Shown here one piece after another: positions 2,796 to 11,874 of a stretch of 64,000 bases of DNA. Source of the DNA: Nocardioides ferulae (GTDB taxonomy: Bacteria > Actinomycetota > Actinomycetes > Propionibacteriales > Nocardioidaceae); NCBI RefSeq assembly GCF_003660455.1, contig NZ_QZVR01000002.1, positions 248,001 through 312,000 on the forward strand, read 5' to 3'. The notes under the pieces were generated by a model that was given only the letters and a program-made list of their open reading frames with translations, did no database searches and was not told the DNA's origin. The first letter of the stretch is position 1. Every line of letters starts with the position of its first letter. A program made the translations under genes and the position numbers.

Positions 2796-3721
2796 CCAGC
2801 ACGGCGCAGCCGCCGCCGCTGGTGGACGCGCTGCCGACCGCCGAGGCCGAGCCCCCGGAGCAGGGAGGCTCGCGCCGGCGTGGGGGACTGACCGGCTACC
2901 TGCTCCTGCTGCCGGCGACGCTGTGGCTGCTGCTGTTCTTCGTGGTCCCGTTCTACTCGCTCGTCGCCACCAGCCTGTTCGACCCGAGCGGCTCGGACTT
3001 CCGCGGCTACGAGATGACCTGGGAGTTCGGCAACTACGTCGACGCGGTGCGCGACTACTGGCAGCCGCTGCTGCGCTCGCTGTGGTACGGCGGCCTCGCG
3101 ACCCTGTTCTGCCTGGTCCTGGGCTACGTGCTGGCCTACGCGATCGCGTTCAAGGCCGGGCGCTGGAAGAACCTGCTGCTGGTGCTGGTGGTCGCACCGT
3201 TCTTCACCAGCTTCCTGGTGCGCACGCTGTCGTGGAAGCTGATCCTCGCCGACGACGGCTTCGTCGTCGAGACGCTGCAGTTCCTGCACCTCCTCGGTGA
3301 CGACGGCCGGCTGCTGGCGACCCCGGTGGCCGTGGTCGCCGGCCTCACCTACAACTTCCTGCCGTTCATGGTGCTGCCGCTCTACGCCAGCCTCGAGAAG
3401 ATCGACCCACGGCTGATCGAAGCCTCCGGCGACCTCTACGCCAACCCGTTCGTGGGCTTCTTCAAGGTCACCTGGCCGCTCTCGCTGCCCGGCGTCGTCT
3501 CCGGCACCCTGCTCACGTTCATCCCGGCCGCCGGCGACTTCATCAACGCCCAGCTCCTCGGCAGCCCCAACCAGCGGATGGTCGGCGGTGTCGTGCAGAG
3601 CCTGTTCACCGATGCCAACGACTATCCGGCCGCCGGCGCGCTGTCGGTGATCATGATGGGCGGCATCTTGATGATGGTGCTGGTCTACGTCCGCCGCGCC
3701 GGCACCGAGGACCTGCTGTGA
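2792..3721 (+). CDS. potB: Polyamine ABC transporter permease, PotB type
   Basis: Inner-membrane permease subunit, 309 aa. I start at the GTG at 2792, which overlaps the potA stop by 4 nt; the longer open frame upstream is only the shadow of potA. About six hydrophobic segments are visible, the first around residues 33-53 (LLLLPATLWLLLFFVVPFYS). The cytoplasmic EAA-like loop is EASGDLYANPFVGFFKVTWP, which contacts the ATPase. The N-terminal 30 residues are Pro/Glu-rich and likely cytosolic. It pairs with PotC to form the channel. Confidence 0.92.
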   Translation: MTSTAQPPPLVDALPTAEAEPPEQGGSRRRGGLTGYLLLLPATLWLLLFFVVPFYSLVATSLFDPSGSDFRGYEMTWEFGNYVDAVRDYWQPLLRSLWYGGLATLFCLVLGYVLAYAIAFKAGRWKNLLLVLVVAPFFTSFLVRTLSWKLILADDGFVVETLQFLHLLGDDGRLLATPVAVVAGLTYNFLPFMVLPLYASLEKIDPRLIEASGDLYANPFVGFFKVTWPLSLPGVVSGTLLTFIPAAGDFINAQLLGSPNQRMVGGVVQSLFTDANDYPAAGALSVIMMGGILMMVLVYVRRAGTEDLL

Positions 3722-4533
3722 GCCGGCCCGCCGGGACGACCGGACGCTGGGTGCGCGAGCACCTGGTGCTGCTGCTGGGGCTGCTCGTGCTGGTCTACAC
3801 GTTCGTGCCGATCGCGGTCGTGGTCCTGATGAGCTTCAACGACCCCGACAGCCGCCTGATCTACCGCTTCGACGGGTTCACGATCGACAACTGGCTCAAC
3901 CCCTGTGCCGAGCCGAGCATGTGCGACGCCGTCGTACGCAGCGTCGAGATCGGCCTCCTCGCCACCGTGCTGGCGACCTTGCTCGGGACCCTGGCCGCGT
4001 TCGCGATGGTGCGGCACCGGTTCGTCGGCCGCTCGACCGCCAACCTGCTGGTCTTCCTGCCGATGGCGGCTCCCGAGATCGTGCTCGGCGCCTCGCTGCT
4101 GGCGCTGTTCGTCGCCTCGGGTCTGGGTGGCCAGCTCGGCTTCTGGACGATCCTGGTCGCCCACGTGATGTTCTGCCTCTCGTTCGTGATCGTCGCGGTG
4201 CGCGCCCGGCTGGCCGGGCTGGACGACACCCTCGAGCAGGCCGCGATGGACCTCTACGCCACTCCCGCGCAGACCTTCTGGCGGGTCACGTTCCCGCTGG
4301 TCTTCCCCGGCATCCTCGGCGCCGCGCTGCTGGCCTTCTCGCTGTCGTTCGACGACTTCATCATCACCAACCTCAACGCCGGCAACACCACCACGTTCCC
4401 CATGTACGTCTGGGGTGTGGCCCAGCGCGGGGTGCCGATGCAGGTCAACGTCGTCGGCACCGTGATGCTCGTCCTCTCGATCGCGATCGTGCTCGCCGGC
4501 GAGCTGCGCGCCCGGCGACGCGCGGGCCGGTGA
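3718..4533 (+). CDS. potC: Polyamine ABC transporter permease, PotC type
   Basis: Second permease subunit, 271 aa, GTG start overlapping the potB stop by 4 nt. Hydrophobic segments occur at about residues 17-37, 74-96, 110-135, 140-160, 190-215 and 240-262. The EAA loop reads EQAAMDLYATPAQTFWRVTF followed by PLVFPGI, the usual MetI-like contact site for the ATPase. A short loop around NPCAEPSMCD carries two cysteines. The next gene starts within its stop codon, which ties the transporter to the catabolic oxidoreductase. Confidence 0.93.
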   Translation: MSRPAGTTGRWVREHLVLLLGLLVLVYTFVPIAVVVLMSFNDPDSRLIYRFDGFTIDNWLNPCAEPSMCDAVVRSVEIGLLATVLATLLGTLAAFAMVRHRFVGRSTANLLVFLPMAAPEIVLGASLLALFVASGLGGQLGFWTILVAHVMFCLSFVIVAVRARLAGLDDTLEQAAMDLYATPAQTFWRVTFPLVFPGILGAALLAFSLSFDDFIITNLNAGNTTTFPMYVWGVAQRGVPMQVNVVGTVMLVLSIAIVLAGELRARRRAGR

Positions 4534-5966
4534 CCCGCACCGGTGCGGCTCCCGGGGCCGCAGCGGCGCGAACCGCCCTGGCGGACGCCGCGCCGGCCGT
4601 CTACTGGCTCGACGATCCCGCCCGACCCGAGGCGCTGCCGCCGCTGAGCGGCCACGCCGCGGCCGACCTGGTCGTCGTCGGCGGCGGCTACACCGGTCTG
4701 TGGACCGCGCTGCTCGCCCGGCAGCGCCACCCCGGCCGGTCGGTGCTGCTGCTCGAGGCCGACGTCTGCGGCAGCCAGGCCAGCGGCCGCAACGGCGGCT
4801 TCGCCGCGGCCAGCCTCACCCACGGGTTCTCCAACGGCATGGAGCGCTGGCCCGACGAGCTCGCCCGGCTCGACCGCCTCGGCGTCGAGAACCTGACCGA
4901 GATCGGGCGCACCGTCGCCGACCTCGGCATCGACTGCGGCTGGGAGCAGACCGGCGAGCTCACCGTCGCCACGGCCGCCCACCAGCTCACCGAGCTCACC
5001 GAGCTCGCCGGCGAGATGCGCTCCGCCGGGCACGACGTGGAGATGCTCGACGCCGAGGCCACCCGCGCCCGCCTCGACTCCCCGACGTACCTCGGTGCGC
5101 TGAGCGACCCGCACGGCACCGCGCTGGTCGAGCCGGCTCGGCTCGCCTGGGGGCTGCGCCGGGCCTGCCGCGACGCCGGTGTCACCGTGCACGAGGGCAC
5201 TCGGGTCACCGGTCTGTCGAAGGCGGGCGGCGGGGTGCGCCTGACCACCGACGGCGCCGACGGACCGGGCACGGTCACGGCCGGCCGCGTCGCGCTCGCC
5301 ACCAACGCGTTCCCGCCGCTGCTGCGACGGCTGCGGCTGATGACGGTGCCGGTCTACGACTACGTGCTGATGACCGAGCCGCTGAGCGCCGAGCAGCGCG
5401 CCGCGATCGGCTGGGCCGGCCGCGAGGGTGTCGGTGACGCCGCGAACCAGTTCCACTACTACCGGCTCACCCGGGACGGCCGAATCCTCTGGGGCGGCTA
5501 CGACGCCATCTACCACTACGGCAGCCGCATCGACCGCACCCTCGAGCAGCGCGACGCCACCCACCGGCTGCTCGCCGCGCACTTCTTCACGACGTTCCCG
5601 CAGCTCGAAGGGCTGCGGTTCACCCACCGCTGGGGCGGCGTGATCGACACCTGCACCCGGTTCTCCGCGTTCTTCGGCCGAGCCCTCGACGGGCGGGCCG
5701 CCTACGCGCTCGGCTACACCGGGCTGGGCGTCGCGGCCAGCAGGTTCGGCGCCCAGGTCATGCTCGACCACCTCGACGGCGCCGACACCGAGCGCACCCG
5801 GCTGCGGATGGTGCGCCAGCGCCCGCTGCCCTTCCCGCCCGAGCCGGCCCGGTCGGCGGGCGTCGCGCTGACCCGCTGGTCCCTGGACCGGGCCGACCGG
5901 CACGATGGTCGACGCAACGCCTGGCTGCGGATGCTGGACCGGCTGGGCATGGGGTTCGACTCCTGA
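4530..5966 (+). CDS. FAD-dependent amine oxidoreductase (DAO family, PuuB-like)
   Basis: Predicted FAD enzyme of the D-amino-acid-oxidase superfamily, 478 aa. The dinucleotide-binding motif VVVGGGYTGLWTALLARQ is near residues 50-67, preceded by the YWLDDPARPEALPPLSG type N-terminus seen in gamma-glutamylputrescine oxidase relatives. GRNGGF is near residues 88-93, and the C-terminal FAD contact is GYTGLGVAASRFGAQ. I use the GTG at 4530 because it overlaps the potC stop by 4 nt; the longer upstream frame is out of register with any function. Co-translation with the transporter suggests it oxidises the imported amine or a conjugate of it. No glutamylpolyamine synthetase is seen here, so the true substrate is open. 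Confidence 0.82.
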   Translation: MTRTGAAPGAAAARTALADAAPAVYWLDDPARPEALPPLSGHAAADLVVVGGGYTGLWTALLARQRHPGRSVLLLEADVCGSQASGRNGGFAAASLTHGFSNGMERWPDELARLDRLGVENLTEIGRTVADLGIDCGWEQTGELTVATAAHQLTELTELAGEMRSAGHDVEMLDAEATRARLDSPTYLGALSDPHGTALVEPARLAWGLRRACRDAGVTVHEGTRVTGLSKAGGGVRLTTDGADGPGTVTAGRVALATNAFPPLLRRLRLMTVPVYDYVLMTEPLSAEQRAAIGWAGREGVGDAANQFHYYRLTRDGRILWGGYDAIYHYGSRIDRTLEQRDATHRLLAAHFFTTFPQLEGLRFTHRWGGVIDTCTRFSAFFGRALDGRAAYALGYTGLGVAASRFGAQVMLDHLDGADTERTRLRMVRQRPLPFPPEPARSAGVALTRWSLDRADRHDGRRNAWLRMLDRLGMGFDS

Positions 5967-6028
5967 CCGGGTCGCCGCACCACAGCACGGATGACCCCCA
6001 CCCCCGACCCCCGACCGAGGAGAGCGCG

Positions 6029-7552
<1,524 letters not shown>

Positions 7553-7555
<3 letters not shown>

Positions 7556-7668
7556 CCTGCCGTTCGTGGTGGGTGGGGTGGCGCTGACCTGCCGTTCGTG
7601 GTGGGTGGGGTGGCGCTGACCTGCCGTTCGTGGTGGGTGGGGAGACGCTGACCTGCCGTTCGTGGTGA
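7553..7668 (+). repeat. 32-bp tandem repeat array A (3.6 copies)
   Basis: Copies begin at 7553, 7585, 7617 and 7649, exactly 32 bp apart; each begins TGACCTGCCGTTCGTGGT. The first three bases are the mmsA stop codon. The copies are nearly identical, pointing to recent expansion or conversion. Reverse-complemented, the unit aligns with array B at 8684-8907. Confidence 0.9.
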
Positions 7669-7739
7669 TCTCGACCACTTCGAGCTCGGCCCGACCGAGT
7701 TCGGGAGCCAGCAGGGGACTCCTGCGCCAGAGTGGTCGC

Positions 7740-8675
7740 GTGGCCGGACGACCCTGCTCCCGGGAGGCGCTGTTCGACTGGCTGCTCGAGGGCGACCCGG
7801 CCATCCGGTGGCAGGCCCTCGCGCATCTCGGCGCAGCGCCGTCCGAGATCGAGCAGGCGCGCCACGAGGTCGCGACATGCGGGTGGGGCGCCGAGCTGCT
7901 GAGCCGCCAGGACTCCGACGGCCGCTGGGCGGGCGCGATCTACAGCCCGAAGTGGACCTCCACGACGTACACGCTGCTGCTGTTGCGCAGGCTGGGGTTG
8001 CCGGCGGGGCACGACGGGGCGCTGGCCGGATGCCGAGTGCTGTGGGACGCGGCCCGGTTCTTCGACGGCGGCGGGTTGAACCTGGCCAAGACCGTGCGGG
8101 CGCCGGAGACCTGCATCACCGCGATGGTGGTGCTCCTCACCGACACCTTCGGGTACGCCGACCCGCGGGCGCAGGCGGCCGTCGACTGGCTGGTGGGCGA
8201 GCAGCTTCCCGACGGCGGGTGGAACTGCGAGACCGTCCGCGGCGCCCGGCACGGCTCCTTCCACACCACGATCAGCGTGCTCGAGTGCCTCCAGGAGCAG
8301 CACCGGTCACCGGACGATGCGGAGGTCGCCGCAGCGCTCGCGGCCGGCCGCGAGTTCCTGCTGCGGCACCGGATGTTCCGCTCGCACCGGACCGGCGAGG
8401 TCGTCGACCAGGCGTACCTGAGGTTCCCGTTCCCGCCGCAGTGGCACTACGACGTGCTGCGCGGCCTCGAGCATCTGGCCGATGCGCAGGTGGCCCCGGA
8501 CGAGCGGGCGGCCGAGGCCGTCGAGGCGGTCCGTGCCGCGCGGCGTACCGACGGCGCCTGGCCGCGACACCGGCCGTGGCCGGGTCGGCAGTGGCTCTCT
8601 CTCGAGGGCCCGGGCCCCAGCCGGTGGACCACGCTGCGGGCGCTCCGGGTCCTGGACTGGTGGGGCGAGGGCTGA
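7740..8675 (+). CDS. Prenyltransferase/squalene-oxidase repeat-like protein, function unknown
   Basis: A 311-residue protein with the alpha-toroid look of the terpene cyclase/prenyltransferase superfamily: repeats such as ELLSRQDSDGRWAGAIYSPK, WLVGEQLPDGGWNCETVRG and VRAARRTDGAWPRHRPWPG carry the QxxDGxW pattern. No DXDD or DCTAE cyclase motif is visible, so catalysis of squalene cyclisation is doubtful. The first in-frame codon after array A that avoids the repeat is GTG 7740; an ATG at 7662 lies inside the last repeat copy and is less likely. No clear ribosome site precedes it. It is an orphan in the polyamine island and is bounded by inverted 32-bp arrays. Confidence 0.72.
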   Translation: MAGRPCSREALFDWLLEGDPAIRWQALAHLGAAPSEIEQARHEVATCGWGAELLSRQDSDGRWAGAIYSPKWTSTTYTLLLLRRLGLPAGHDGALAGCRVLWDAARFFDGGGLNLAKTVRAPETCITAMVVLLTDTFGYADPRAQAAVDWLVGEQLPDGGWNCETVRGARHGSFHTTISVLECLQEQHRSPDDAEVAAALAAGREFLLRHRMFRSHRTGEVVDQAYLRFPFPPQWHYDVLRGLEHLADAQVAPDERAAEAVEAVRAARRTDGAWPRHRPWPGRQWLSLEGPGPSRWTTLRALRVLDWWGEG

Positions 8676-8683
8676 GCGAGCCG

Positions 8684-8907
8684 CCACGGGTGGCGGGTCA
8701 GGGCCGGGCCGCCGACCACGGGTGGCGGGTCGGCGTCGGGTCGCCGACCACGGGTGGCGGGTCGGCGTCGGGTCGCCGACCACGGGTGGCGGGTCGGCGC
8801 CGGATCACCCACCACGGCTGGCGGGTCGGCGTCGGGTCGCCGACCACGAGTGGCGGGTCGGCGCCGGATCACCCACCACGAGTGGCGGGTCAGCGTCAGA
8901 TCAACGA
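8684..8907 (-). repeat. 32-bp tandem repeat array B (7 copies), inverted relative to array A
   Basis: Copies start at 8684, 8716, 8748, 8780, 8812, 8844 and 8876 with no change of phase; the plus-strand core is CCACGGGTGGCGGGTCGGCG with variants CCACGAGTGG and CCACGGCTGG. The last copy contains the aminotransferase stop codon (8896-8898). On the minus strand the array runs away from that stop just as array A runs away from the mmsA stop. Confidence 0.9.
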
Positions 8908-10266
8908 CCCCGCCTTGTCGAGGACCACGCGGAGGATCTGCTCCATCTCGTCGAAGTGCTCGGGGCCGCAGATCAACGGCGGAGCCAGCTGCACGACCGG
9001 GTCGCCACGGTCGTCGGCGCGACAGTAGAGGCCCTCGGCGAAGAGCTGCTTGGAGACGAAGCCGTAGAGCAGCCGCTCGCACTCCTCGTCGGTGAAGGAC
9101 TCCTTCGTGGTCTTGTCCTTGACCAGCTCGATCCCGTAGAAGAAGCCGTCGCCGCGCACGTCGCCGACGATCGGCAGGTCCTTGAGCCGCTCCAGCGTGG
9201 CCCGGAAGGTGCCCTCGTTCTCGCGCACCCGCTCCAGCAGCCTCTCGTCCTCGAAGATCTGCAGGTTGCGCAGGCCGACCGCGGTCGAGACGGGGTGACC
9301 GCCGAACGTGTAGCCGTGCGCGAACATCTCCCGGCCGGTGCGGAAGGGCTCCATCAGCCGGTCGGAAGCGATCATCGCGCCGAGCGGCGAGTAGCCGGAG
9401 GTGATCCCCTTCGCGACGGTGATCATGTCGGGCTGGTAGTCGTAGCGGTCGGCGCCGAACATGTGCCCCAGCCGGCCGAACGCGCAGATCACCTCGTCGG
9501 AGACCAGCAGCACGTCGTGCTCGTCGCAGATCTCGCGCACCCGCTGGAAGTAGCCGGGCGGCGGCGGGAAGCAGCCGCCGGCGTTCTGCACCGGCTCGAG
9601 GAAGACCGCCGCGACCGTGTCGGGGCCCTCGTTCTCGATGGCGACGGCGATCTGGTCGGCGGCCCACCGGCCGAACGCCTCGAGGTCGTCGGTCCGCTCG
9701 GGCGCCCGGTAGAAGTTGGTGTTCGGCACCCGGAAGGTGGAGGGCACCAGCGGCTCGAACTGCTGCTTGAGCCCCGGCAGGCCGGTGATCGACAGCGCGC
9801 CCTGGGTGGTGCCGTGGTAGGCGATCGAACGGCTGATCACCTTGTGCTTGAGCGGCTTGCCGACCAGCTTGAAGTAGTTCTTGGCCAGCTTCCACGCGGT
9901 CTCGACGGCCTCGCCGCCCCCGCTGGTGAAGAACACCCGGTTGAGGTCCCCGGGCGCGTAGCCGGCGATCTTCTCGGCCAGCTCGATCGCGGTCGGGTGG
10001 GCGTAGGACCACAGCGGGTGGAAGGCCAGCTGCTTGGCCTGGGCGGCCGCGGTCTCGGCCAGCTCGGTGCGGCCGTGGCCGACCTGGGTCACGAACAGCC
10101 CGGCCAGCGCGTCGAGGTAGCGCTTGCCGTTGGCGTCCCAGATGTAGCTGCCCTCACCGCGCACGATCACGGGCACGTCCGCCTCGGCGTAGGACCCGTG
10201 CCGGGTGAAGTGCATCCACAGGTGGTCCTTGGCGGCGCGCTGCAGGTGGTCGTAGTCCGGGTGCAT
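8896..10266 (-). CDS. Class III aminotransferase, putrescine/polyamine-pyruvate type
   Basis: PLP-dependent aminotransferase, 456 aa, resembling SpuC-type putrescine:pyruvate aminotransferases. The PLP lysine is K286 in MITVAKGITSG; the cofactor-binding aspartate lies in LLVSDEVICAFGRLG and the phosphate contact in FTSGGGEAVETAWKLAKNY. I start at ATG 10266 (MHPDYDHLQRAAKDHLW), the typical family N-terminus, although the frame is open to 10347. It would convert putrescine to 4-aminobutanal, the substrate of the divergent dehydrogenase at 10441. Its stop codon lies in repeat array B. Confidence 0.87.
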   Translation of the reverse strand: MHPDYDHLQRAAKDHLWMHFTRHGSYAEADVPVIVRGEGSYIWDANGKRYLDALAGLFVTQVGHGRTELAETAAAQAKQLAFHPLWSYAHPTAIELAEKIAGYAPGDLNRVFFTSGGGEAVETAWKLAKNYFKLVGKPLKHKVISRSIAYHGTTQGALSITGLPGLKQQFEPLVPSTFRVPNTNFYRAPERTDDLEAFGRWAADQIAVAIENEGPDTVAAVFLEPVQNAGGCFPPPPGYFQRVREICDEHDVLLVSDEVICAFGRLGHMFGADRYDYQPDMITVAKGITSGYSPLGAMIASDRLMEPFRTGREMFAHGYTFGGHPVSTAVGLRNLQIFEDERLLERVRENEGTFRATLERLKDLPIVGDVRGDGFFYGIELVKDKTTKESFTDEECERLLYGFVSKQLFAEGLYCRADDRGDPVVQLAPPLICGPEHFDEMEQILRVVLDKAGSLI

Positions 10267-10330
10267 GGGTCCATGGTGACCGCCAGACGCACCCGAAGCA
10301 AGTGAATCAGTCGTGAAGGCTGGTTCTGTG

Positions 10331-10350
10331 TTGCGAAATCGAAACACGTC
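10331..10350. promoter_or_regulatory. Candidate operator between aminotransferase and aldehyde dehydrogenase
   Basis: TTGCGAAATCGAAACA repeats the TTGCGAA half-site found upstream of potD and sits in the 174-nt gap between two divergent polyamine genes. A related TCGCAAC (11973-11979) precedes the gene at 12013. Binding by the island's AsnC-type regulator is inference. Confidence 0.3.
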
Positions 10351-10395
10351 CGGCTATCCACGTCCGGATCCGTGGTCAGAACGCTGTCGACACCA

Positions 10396-10401
10396 CTAGG
10401 C
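10396..10401 (+). promoter_or_regulatory. Probable -10 hexamer for the aldehyde dehydrogenase gene
   Basis: TAGGCT lies 39 nt before the ATG at 10441, which leaves a short leader containing GGAGG (about 10426-10431). No good -35 is visible. Confidence 0.4.
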
Positions 10402-10440
10402 TCTCGCCACCCGACCACCACACCCGGAGGCAGACCGGCC

Positions 10441-11874
10441 ATGCCAGAGACCACCTTCCGCAACGTCGTCGACGGCCACCTCGTCGACGCCGCCTCGGGC
10501 GAGACCTACGACGTCGTCGACCCCACCACCGGCGAGACCTACGCGACCGCCCCCGTCTCCGACGACGTGGACGTCGATCGCGCGTACGCCGCCGCGGCCC
10601 GCGCCTTCGAGTCGTGGGGCAGCACCACCCCGCAGGAGCGCGCCGGGGCGCTGCTGAGGATCGCCGACGCCATCGAGGCCCGAGCCGACGAGATCAACGC
10701 CGTCGAGTGCCGCGACACGGGCAAGCCGCTGGGGGTCACCATGTCGGAGGAGATGCCCTACGCGTGGGACCACTTCCGGTTCTTCGCCGGCGCCGCGCGC
10801 GTCCTCGAGGGTCGCTCGGCGGGGGAGTACCTGGCCGACCACACCTCGTGGATCCGGCGCGAGCCGGTCGGCGTCGTCGGCCAGGTGACACCATGGAACT
10901 ACCCGCTGCTGATGATGATCTGGAAGATCGCGCCGGCACTGGCCGCCGGCAACACCGTTGTGCTCAAGCCCAGCGACACCACGCCCGCCAGCTCGACGCT
11001 GCTCGCCGAGCTGTGCCAGGAGTTCCTGCCCCCCGGCGTCCTCAACGTCGTGTGCGGAGACCGCGACACCGGCCGCCGCCTGGTGGCCCACCCGACGCCG
11101 CAGATGGTGGCGATCACCGGGTCGGTGCGCGCCGGCATGGAGGTGGCCGGCTCCGCGGCCGGCGACCTCAAGCGGGTGCACCTCGAGCTCGGTGGCAAGG
11201 CTCCGGTGATCGTCTTCGACGACGCCGACATCGAGAAGGCGGCCGAGGGCATCGCCGGCGCCGGCCTGTTCAACGCCGGCCAGGACTGCACCGCGGCCAC
11301 CCGGGTGCTCGTCGGGGCCGGCATCCACGACGAGTTCGTCGCCGCGCTCACCGAGGCCGCCAAGGGCATGCCGACCGGGGACCCGGCCGACGAGGCGACC
11401 TACTACGGCCCGCTCAACAACCAGAGCCAGCTCGAGCGGGTCAGCGGCATGGTCGACCGGCTTCCCGACCACGCCACCCTCCAGACCGGTGGTGCGCGGC
11501 ACGGCAGCGTCGGCTACTTCTACGAGCCCACCGTCGTCTCCGGCCTGCGGCAGGACGACGAGCAGATCCAGACCGAGATCTTCGGCCCCGTGATGACCGT
11601 GCAGAAGTTCACCGACGAGGCCGAGGCCCTGCGGTGGGCCAACGGCGTCGAGTACGGCCTGTCCTCGAGCGTCTGGACCAAGGACCACGCCCGCGCGATG
11701 CGGATGTCGCGCGGCCTCGACTTCGGAGTCGTCTGGATCAACACCCACATCCCGTTCATCTCCGAGATGCCCCACGGCGGGTTCAAGCACTCCGGCTACG
11801 GCAAGGACCTCTCCATGTACGGCCTCGAGGACTACACGCGCATCAAGCACGTCATGTCGTTCATCGGGGAGTAG
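10441..11874 (+). CDS. Gamma-aminobutyraldehyde dehydrogenase-like ALDH
   Basis: NAD(P)-dependent aldehyde dehydrogenase, 477 aa. General base Glu249 in LELGGKAPV and nucleophile Cys283 in FNAGQDCTAATR are present; the NAD-binding region includes GQVTPWNYPLLM and KPSDTTPAS. GQDC instead of GQRC is typical of the 4-aminobutanal/betaine aldehyde branch (PatD/PuuC-like). The ATG at 10441 follows a GGAGG at proper spacing. It would oxidise 4-aminobutanal from the neighbouring aminotransferase to GABA. The spermidine-derived 3-aminopropanal is another possible substrate. Confidence 0.88.
   Translation: MPETTFRNVVDGHLVDAASGETYDVVDPTTGETYATAPVSDDVDVDRAYAAAARAFESWGSTTPQERAGALLRIADAIEARADEINAVECRDTGKPLGVTMSEEMPYAWDHFRFFAGAARVLEGRSAGEYLADHTSWIRREPVGVVGQVTPWNYPLLMMIWKIAPALAAGNTVVLKPSDTTPASSTLLAELCQEFLPPGVLNVVCGDRDTGRRLVAHPTPQMVAITGSVRAGMEVAGSAAGDLKRVHLELGGKAPVIVFDDADIEKAAEGIAGAGLFNAGQDCTAATRVLVGAGIHDEFVAALTEAAKGMPTGDPADEATYYGPLNNQSQLERVSGMVDRLPDHATLQTGGARHGSVGYFYEPTVVSGLRQDDEQIQTEIFGPVMTVQKFTDEAEALRWANGVEYGLSSSVWTKDHARAMRMSRGLDFGVVWINTHIPFISEMPHGGFKHSGYGKDLSMYGLEDYTRIKHVMSFIGE

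Follow-up and report, generated by a model that had tools for sequence, protein, structure and literature searches.

Tandem arrays of a dispersed 32-bp unit past stop codons in Nocardioides ferulae and their putative role at transcript ends

On an even balance of judgement, we regard the two inverted tandem arrays described here as dispersed, lineage-specific tandem repeats, which form the 3' ends of genes, chiefly convergent ones, and have a putative role at transcript ends. Such a role is probably the best-supported function, as read from the sequence. The arrays lie in the window, i.e., the whole analysed stretch of 64,000 nucleotides, which corresponds to G000:C2:248001-312000 in a genome of 4.75 Mb and 68 contigs.

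The initial annotation had described two inverted arrays of four and seven copies with an exact 32-bp period, and this was confirmed by Tandem Repeats Finder (TRF) as well as by a profile of the unit (Table 1). TRF placed array A at 7552-7667 (period 32, 3.6 copies, 97% matches) and array B at 8680-8897 (period 32, 6.8 copies, 88% matches). The profile had no further matches in the window beyond the four units on the + strand and the seven on the - strand, and none in base-shuffled versions of the 28 fetched loci (172,916 bases). The units of array A scored 38.6, 38.6, 39.4 and 16.1 bits, and those of array B 14.2-38.8 bits. Two units are degenerate, namely the fourth of A (16.1 bits), in which the match is limited to approximately the first 17 nt, and the seventh of B (14.2 bits), which overlaps the 3' end of the gene between the arrays; the remaining nine reach 28-39 bits. 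Read in sense orientation, A and B units at this locus (L046) are 68% alike, which agrees with the resemblance previously seen between the reverse-complemented A unit and the B unit. Both arrays run away from the stop codon, as had been stated. That both begin at a stop codon holds for array A, where the stop TGA overlaps the first core, and does not hold strictly for array B, which starts 5 nt past the stop.

Table 1. Positions of the arrays, the adjoining genes and further repeats; entries without a locus or genome handle refer to the window.
Feature	Position	Strand	Description	Basis or score
Array A	7552..7682	+	four 32-bp units; core ACCTGCCGTTCGTGGTGGGT	TRF, profile search
Array A units	7555-7586, 7587-7618, 7619-7650, 7651-7682	+		unit starts 7555, 7587, 7619, 7651 (profile of unit)
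Array B	8667..8890	-	seven 32-bp units; core ACCCGCCACYCGTGGTSGG	TRF, profile search, RNA fold
Array B units	8859-8890, 8827-8858, 8795-8826, 8763-8794, 8731-8762, 8699-8730, degenerate 8667-8698	-		unit starts 8667, 8699, 8731, 8763, 8795, 8827, 8859 (profile of unit)
Stop codon TGA, aldehyde dehydrogenase gene	7553..7555	+	its A is base 1 of first A core; distance -1	sequence, ORF list
Stop codon TGA, aminotransferase gene	8896..8898	-	5 nt ahead of first B core	sequence, ORF list
Gene before array A	6029..7555	+	CoA-acylating methylmalonate-semialdehyde dehydrogenase family (mmsA-like)	Aldedh 457.9 bits; TIGR01722 671.8 bits, cut-off 448.5
Gene before array B	8896..10347	-	class-III aminotransferase	Aminotran_3 311.2 bits; NF005102 823.8 bits, cut-off 574
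Middle gene	7740..8675	+	311 aa, weakly like squalene-hopene cyclase N-terminal domain	PF13249 23.3 bits, cut-off 26.2
~271-bp element	L052:2800-3075 and 3170-3440; also L039, L043, L045, L047, L048, L050, L051, L053, L056, L061, L063, L140			
Further tandem families	G064 L142:5283-5419, L149:10873-10933, L151:10500-10594; G055 L152:11412-11513; G091 L221			

When array A with its flanks (7500-7740) was searched by BLAST, 41 matches were obtained in this genome, nearly all inside the repeat. A covariance model of the core, built from 70 distinct units, gave 162 matches at E <= 1, 150 of which were listed. Among the matches listed, 41 arrays of at least two copies were present at 27 fetched loci, with sizes from 2 to 10 copies; these counts exclude L045, which has a single unit, and L059, where a single weak unit lies inside a gene. 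Gene calls came from an in-house script based on codon usage in the window, and some contexts, mainly in relatives, may be wrong. Again among the matches listed, a same-strand gene precedes the array in 35 of the 41 cases, and 26 of these 35 arrays begin no more than 30 nt past the stop codon, which confirms the suspected preference of the copies for stop codons. The exceptions among the matches listed are the six arrays with no preceding same-strand gene and the nine of 35 that start more than 30 nt past the stop. Seven arrays of the same set keep one fixed register, in which the core opens with the final A of the stop TGA, and the gene on the far side is convergent in 34 of 38. The idea of an expandable 3'-end element, one of several raised in the initial annotation, is supported in that the unit is dispersed in the genome and the arrays prefer the ground just past stops. 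A search for RNA genes before arrays without a near stop (ARAGORN, 28 loci) returned three tRNA-like genes (L047, L051), none of them beside an array.

Eleven loci among the matches listed carry two facing arrays, each of at least two copies. Nine of these pairs are separated by gaps of 0 to ~165 bp without a gene, and two by ~1 kb (the window locus and L042). By rough estimate, 29 convergent pairs per 200-kb sample correspond to ~690 in the genome, and if the 41 arrays were scattered among 1,380 convergent ends, fewer than one facing pair would be expected, again roughly, as against the 11 found. Tandem repeats were seen in none of the 26 convergent stop segments of a 200-kb sample of this genome; the family is thus limited to a small part of gene ends and is no general terminator. 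The end of contig C5 (C5:319414-319505, L057) and the start of contig C6 (C6:1-205, L058) carry arrays of a nearly identical unit. Since both contig ends lie inside arrays, the assembly was probably broken at a longer array, and L057 and L058 may represent one junction. Next to the 32-bp arrays, a second dispersed element of ~271 bp is present at 13 loci; it is rich in G+C and contains a long but imperfect hairpin (fold z -2.84). This element is matched 14 times in this genome, and across 98 genus genomes G037 and G016 gave further matches, which are shorter and diverged.

The core of the unit is ACCYGYCRYTCGTGGTNGGT, with GCTG or GGTG ahead of it in most cases and ~12 more variable nt behind it; the core is kept between arrays, while the spacer has diverged. 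Positions C7 and G14 are invariant in 160 of 160 units. The core can be drawn as an imperfect hairpin, in which pair 4-17, like the outer pairs, frequently fails to form. No change was found at pairs 5-16 (G-T) and 7-14 (C-G) in 147 units, whereas the C-G of pair 6-15 becomes T-G in 50 and the A-T of pair 8-13 becomes G-T in 52 of them. With such changes at positions 6 (C/T opposite G) and 8 (A/G opposite T), the pairs are kept in coding-strand RNA alone. In 34 of the 41 arrays, RNA of the coding strand was predicted to be stabler than that of the opposite strand (Wilcoxon p ~1e-6; mean z -1.82 vs -0.69), and among single cores the coding strand was the stabler in 110 of 152, with 10 equal and 32 opposite. 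Compensatory double changes were absent from all stem pairs, and the covariation score was reached by 494 of 500 shuffles; consequently, the pairing is not proven. In the window, the fold of array A was no better than shuffles (z -1.14), and that of array B reached z = -5.73 on the coding strand. The arrays are not followed by a T-tract, T making up 17% of the 40 nt past the last core. Terminator-like sites were not found at 7400-9100 of the window, nor were matches to Rfam covariance models at 7200-9300 up to E = 1. Beside another locus there is a sub-threshold mraW match (30.2 bits, gathering score 50).

Within the arrays of facing pairs, units are 87% identical, while similarity between both arms of a locus is 65%, which indicates internal homogenisation and facing arms that are not recent copies of each other. 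Indeed, own-locus arms are 0.648 alike, as compared with 0.677 for arms shuffled between loci, and only ~0.4% of 2,000 permutations were lower. Core positions 4, 8, 9 and 17 distinguish the two arms of a pair. At the facing pairs L038, L040-L042, L044, L046, L054 and L058, one arm tends to T4/G17 and the other to C4/C17, the T4/G17-type arm being mostly on the + strand of the contig. Strand skew was considered as the cause of the difference between arms and was rejected, the overall GC skew of the sampled contigs being within ~0.02.

Convergent gene ends free of arrays have hairpins of their own. For 14 convergent spacers without arrays, all from this genome, the mean of the best hairpin was -26.9 kcal/mol, compared to -16.5 kcal/mol in shuffled sequences. 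The corresponding values for eight gaps between facing arrays were -15.7 and -11.8 kcal/mol, a mean which leaves out three of the 11 facing pairs (one gap too short, two of ~1 kb). A wider comparison gave -17.0 vs -10.5 for array-free convergent 3' segments (n = 50) and -14.9 vs -12.9 for array segments (n = 42). A T-tail seldom followed the hairpin in either set (4 of 50 and 4 of 42, respectively). These values, which are based on small numbers, are consistent with arrays taking the place of the strong hairpin that is usually present.

As a mechanism, each unit would fold as a small hairpin on the coding strand, and 2-10 units would give a row of hairpins. The array may then act in the transcript as a 3'-end structure, either in hairpin-assisted or Rho-assisted termination, or in protection against 3' exonucleases, or both. 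It would replace the single strong hairpin typical of array-free convergent ends, and so separate the converging transcripts; copy number could shift by slippage or unequal exchange.

The main rival to a transcript-end role, and a serious one, is a tolerated selfish or neutral repeat, the units of which are copied around, expanded by slippage, and survive where insertions harm least, the folding being incidental or serving the spreading. We hold this to be a real possibility, somewhat short of an even chance. Its favour comes partly from the arrays being present at a small part of gene ends, and partly from the hairpin-rich ~271-bp element beside them at 13 loci, which indicates that such spacers collect repeats. 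The conservation of the core between arrays while the spacer diverges argues against it, as do the bias in folding towards the coding strand and, in small numbers, the weakness of the usual strong hairpin where arrays stand. A Y1 (RAYT/TnpA-REP) transposase is a feature of REP sequences, though not of every REP set. The Y1 model PF01797 had no matches in this genome (the control was positive in 5 of 14 genomes), so that a REP family with its own transposase was rejected, and the missing REP-type transposase counts against a selfish repeat as well.

The distribution of the 32-bp family, being species-specific and sporadic, agrees well with a selfish repeat. With the core model, the family was found in one of 147 genus genomes, i.e., this one, and the other 146 had 0-3 weak matches each among the matches listed; the filters were stricter in this search, under which the 162 matches in this genome fell to 84. 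The expectation that the unit would be met in other genomes of the group was accordingly not borne out in these 146 genomes among the matches listed. At nine places with weak matches in other genus genomes (L067-L075), an array of the 32-bp unit was absent. BLAST against 39 genomes gave strong matches confined to this genome and weak ones in 14 others (E 0.003-0.01). The exact core pattern, searched in one genome per species for 84,980 species, had two lone matches, in a search from which records very near the window may be excluded. It had no matches in viral contigs, and a phage origin was rejected. No description of such repeats in this group was found in the open-access literature by title and abstract start.

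Relatives have different repeats at comparable positions. The aminotransferase gene has an array just past its stop here, and in 9 of 29 relatives a tandem array starts within 70 nt of the stop of the homologue, in which the unit is 16, 22, 32 or 45 bp long and of a different sequence; the 32-bp unit of the window followed the stop in none of the 29. As these arrays have other units in relatives, array identity and copy number can be compared with mRNA 3' ends. The 45-bp unit after the aminotransferase gene of G010 was rejected as a family and is local, since it matched four times, at two places, in G010 and not at all in 10 other genomes. In samples of 200 kb, tandem repeats were found in 14 of 34 convergent stop segments of G064, as compared with 5 of 105 start segments, and in 7 of 34 of G055, as compared with 6 of 105; often they were two facing arrays with a 22-bp period. 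G013 showed no such contrast (2 of 14 vs 11 of 112). Here and in the genus-wide survey below, the counts are of segments and not of independent arrays, facing arrays and short spacers being counted from both sides. Additional tandem families with periods of 12, 21 or 22 bp were observed, several of them as facing inverted pairs (Table 1). Post-stop tandem repeats as a property of the whole genus were considered and rejected, convergent stop segments having 7 of 56 in 22 genus genomes (20 kb each) vs 7 of 58 in nine genomes from other families (sampled as two stretches of 20 kb each). The values for all post-stop segments were 14 of 160 vs 13 of 164, and for start segments 13 of 236 vs 14 of 222. 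The sole distinction of the genus in this survey was a lag of 21-22 bp, seen in 6 of 160 post-stop segments (four spacers, three genomes) vs 0 of 164.

The 22-bp family, searched with the pattern GACCCGGCSCANATCTCGC at up to two mismatches, had 227 matches in G064, 129 in G013 and 166 in G096, and at most seven in each of 11 other genomes. We examined 32 of its arrays, from 20 loci picked among the matches listed and six loci fetched before. A same-strand gene preceded 28 of them. In 16 of these, the gene stops exactly at the TGA of the first unit, and in one case it reaches into the second unit and ends there. Any open reading frame that enters such an array must end at the TGA of some unit, but by chance the ends would be distributed among the first three units. 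Beyond the array, the next gene was convergent in only 17 of 32, i.e., the 22-bp family is less tied to convergent genes. For the selfish explanation, these relatives cut both ways: that their units are unrelated speaks for it, and the fixed stop-codon register of the 22-bp family in 16 of 28 arrays against it.

A broader and rather doubtful proposal is that of fast-changing gene-end elements, where some lineages of the genus would each have their own TGA-containing tandem unit, the first TGA of which can be the stop codon. The repeated hairpins would then serve as modular 3' ends separating convergent transcripts, with the sequence replaced between species and the position and build kept.

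The units could instead work at the level of DNA, as binding sites for a nucleoid protein, a topoisomerase or a protein specific to the repeat, and might help to manage supercoiling where genes converge; we find this unlikely. The near-palindromic core with its invariant C7 and G14 (160 of 160 units) would suit such a site. So would the periods, 32 bp here being three helical turns and 22 bp in relatives approximately two, which would place the units on one face of the DNA. REP elements have been reported to bind gyrase, Pol I and IHF, according to PMC1525189. Against this, periods of 12, 16 and 45 bp occur among relatives too, and the strand bias in folding and in stem changes points to RNA.

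The gene between the arrays appears to be a bystander, independent of them. The cyclase fold assigned to it earlier stands as far as a weak similarity to cyclases, and falls short beyond that, its PF13249 score being below the cut-off (Table 1) and its NCBIfam cyclase matches, at 18.7 and 18.6 bits, far under theirs. Relatives of the gene are present in 15 of 146 other genus genomes (35-58% identity across matched parts), and none of the 13 neighbourhoods looked at had a 32-bp tandem repeat. The polyamine setting proposed for the locus fits the genes at 4530-11874. An aminobutyraldehyde dehydrogenase gene (10441-11874) is above the cut-off of NF010000, and an FAD oxidoreductase gene (4530-5966) is below cut-off. 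A mobile cassette bounded by the inverted arrays and carrying the middle gene, or a large cruciform formed by them, was among the first suggestions. The arrays do flank one gene, whose relatives are sporadic, and the facing pair L042 shares the ~1-kb gap; we consider this reading highly improbable, given that the other nine facing pairs have short gaps without a gene, that own-pair arms, ~1 kb apart here, are less alike than arms of different loci, that the gene has an ordinary base composition near that of its neighbours (GC3 0.94), and that, among the matches listed, arrays of at least two copies stand at 26 other fetched loci and the array family in none of the 15 genomes with a relative of the gene. 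Arrays without the gene, and relatives of the gene without arrays, leave no insertion module.

Dispersed extragenic repeats at gene ends are known from REP and MIRU. A family that starts from the stop codon, stands in mirror-image arrays between convergent genes and is replaced in relatives would be a good test system for selfish versus working repeats. REP/BIME units often occur as inverted pairs. MIRU repeats sit inside operons and reportedly overlap with stop codons, an observation said to go back to Supply et al. in 1997. The present arrays share with intrinsic (Rho-independent) terminators the coding-strand hairpins soon after stop codons, and differ from them in being tandemly repeated hairpins without a T-tract. 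In PMC4679880, TAACTGA direct repeats of Beggiatoaceae and cyanobacteria are presented as abundant short intergenic repeats with a suspected post-transcriptional action. The likeness lies in short intergenic direct repeats suspected of such action; however, those are heptamers mostly just upstream of start codons, whereas here 32-mers lie past stops. MIRU have units of 46-101 bp at 41 loci, as given in PMC3914561. Similar to these mycobacterial repeats, tandem repeats occur here at dozens of loci (41 arrays at 27 loci among the matches listed), but the unit of 32 (or 22) bp falls outside 46-101 bp and is not a multiple of 3, and the arrays face each other in pairs where convergent genes end, not within operons. 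PMC1525189 describes REP sequences as short imperfect palindromes dispersed in extragenic space and frequent between convergent genes, and as proposed mRNA stabilisers and attenuators. The present family resembles REP/BIMEs in its short palindromic extragenic units with 162 core matches in this genome, and REP in its preference for convergent spacers (far gene convergent in 34 of 38 arrays among the matches listed). Unlike REP/BIMEs, it forms exact 32-bp head-to-tail arrays of 2-10 units, which run from the stop codon and are homogenised within arrays. The family is closest in kind to REP and MIRU repeats, with a build of its own.
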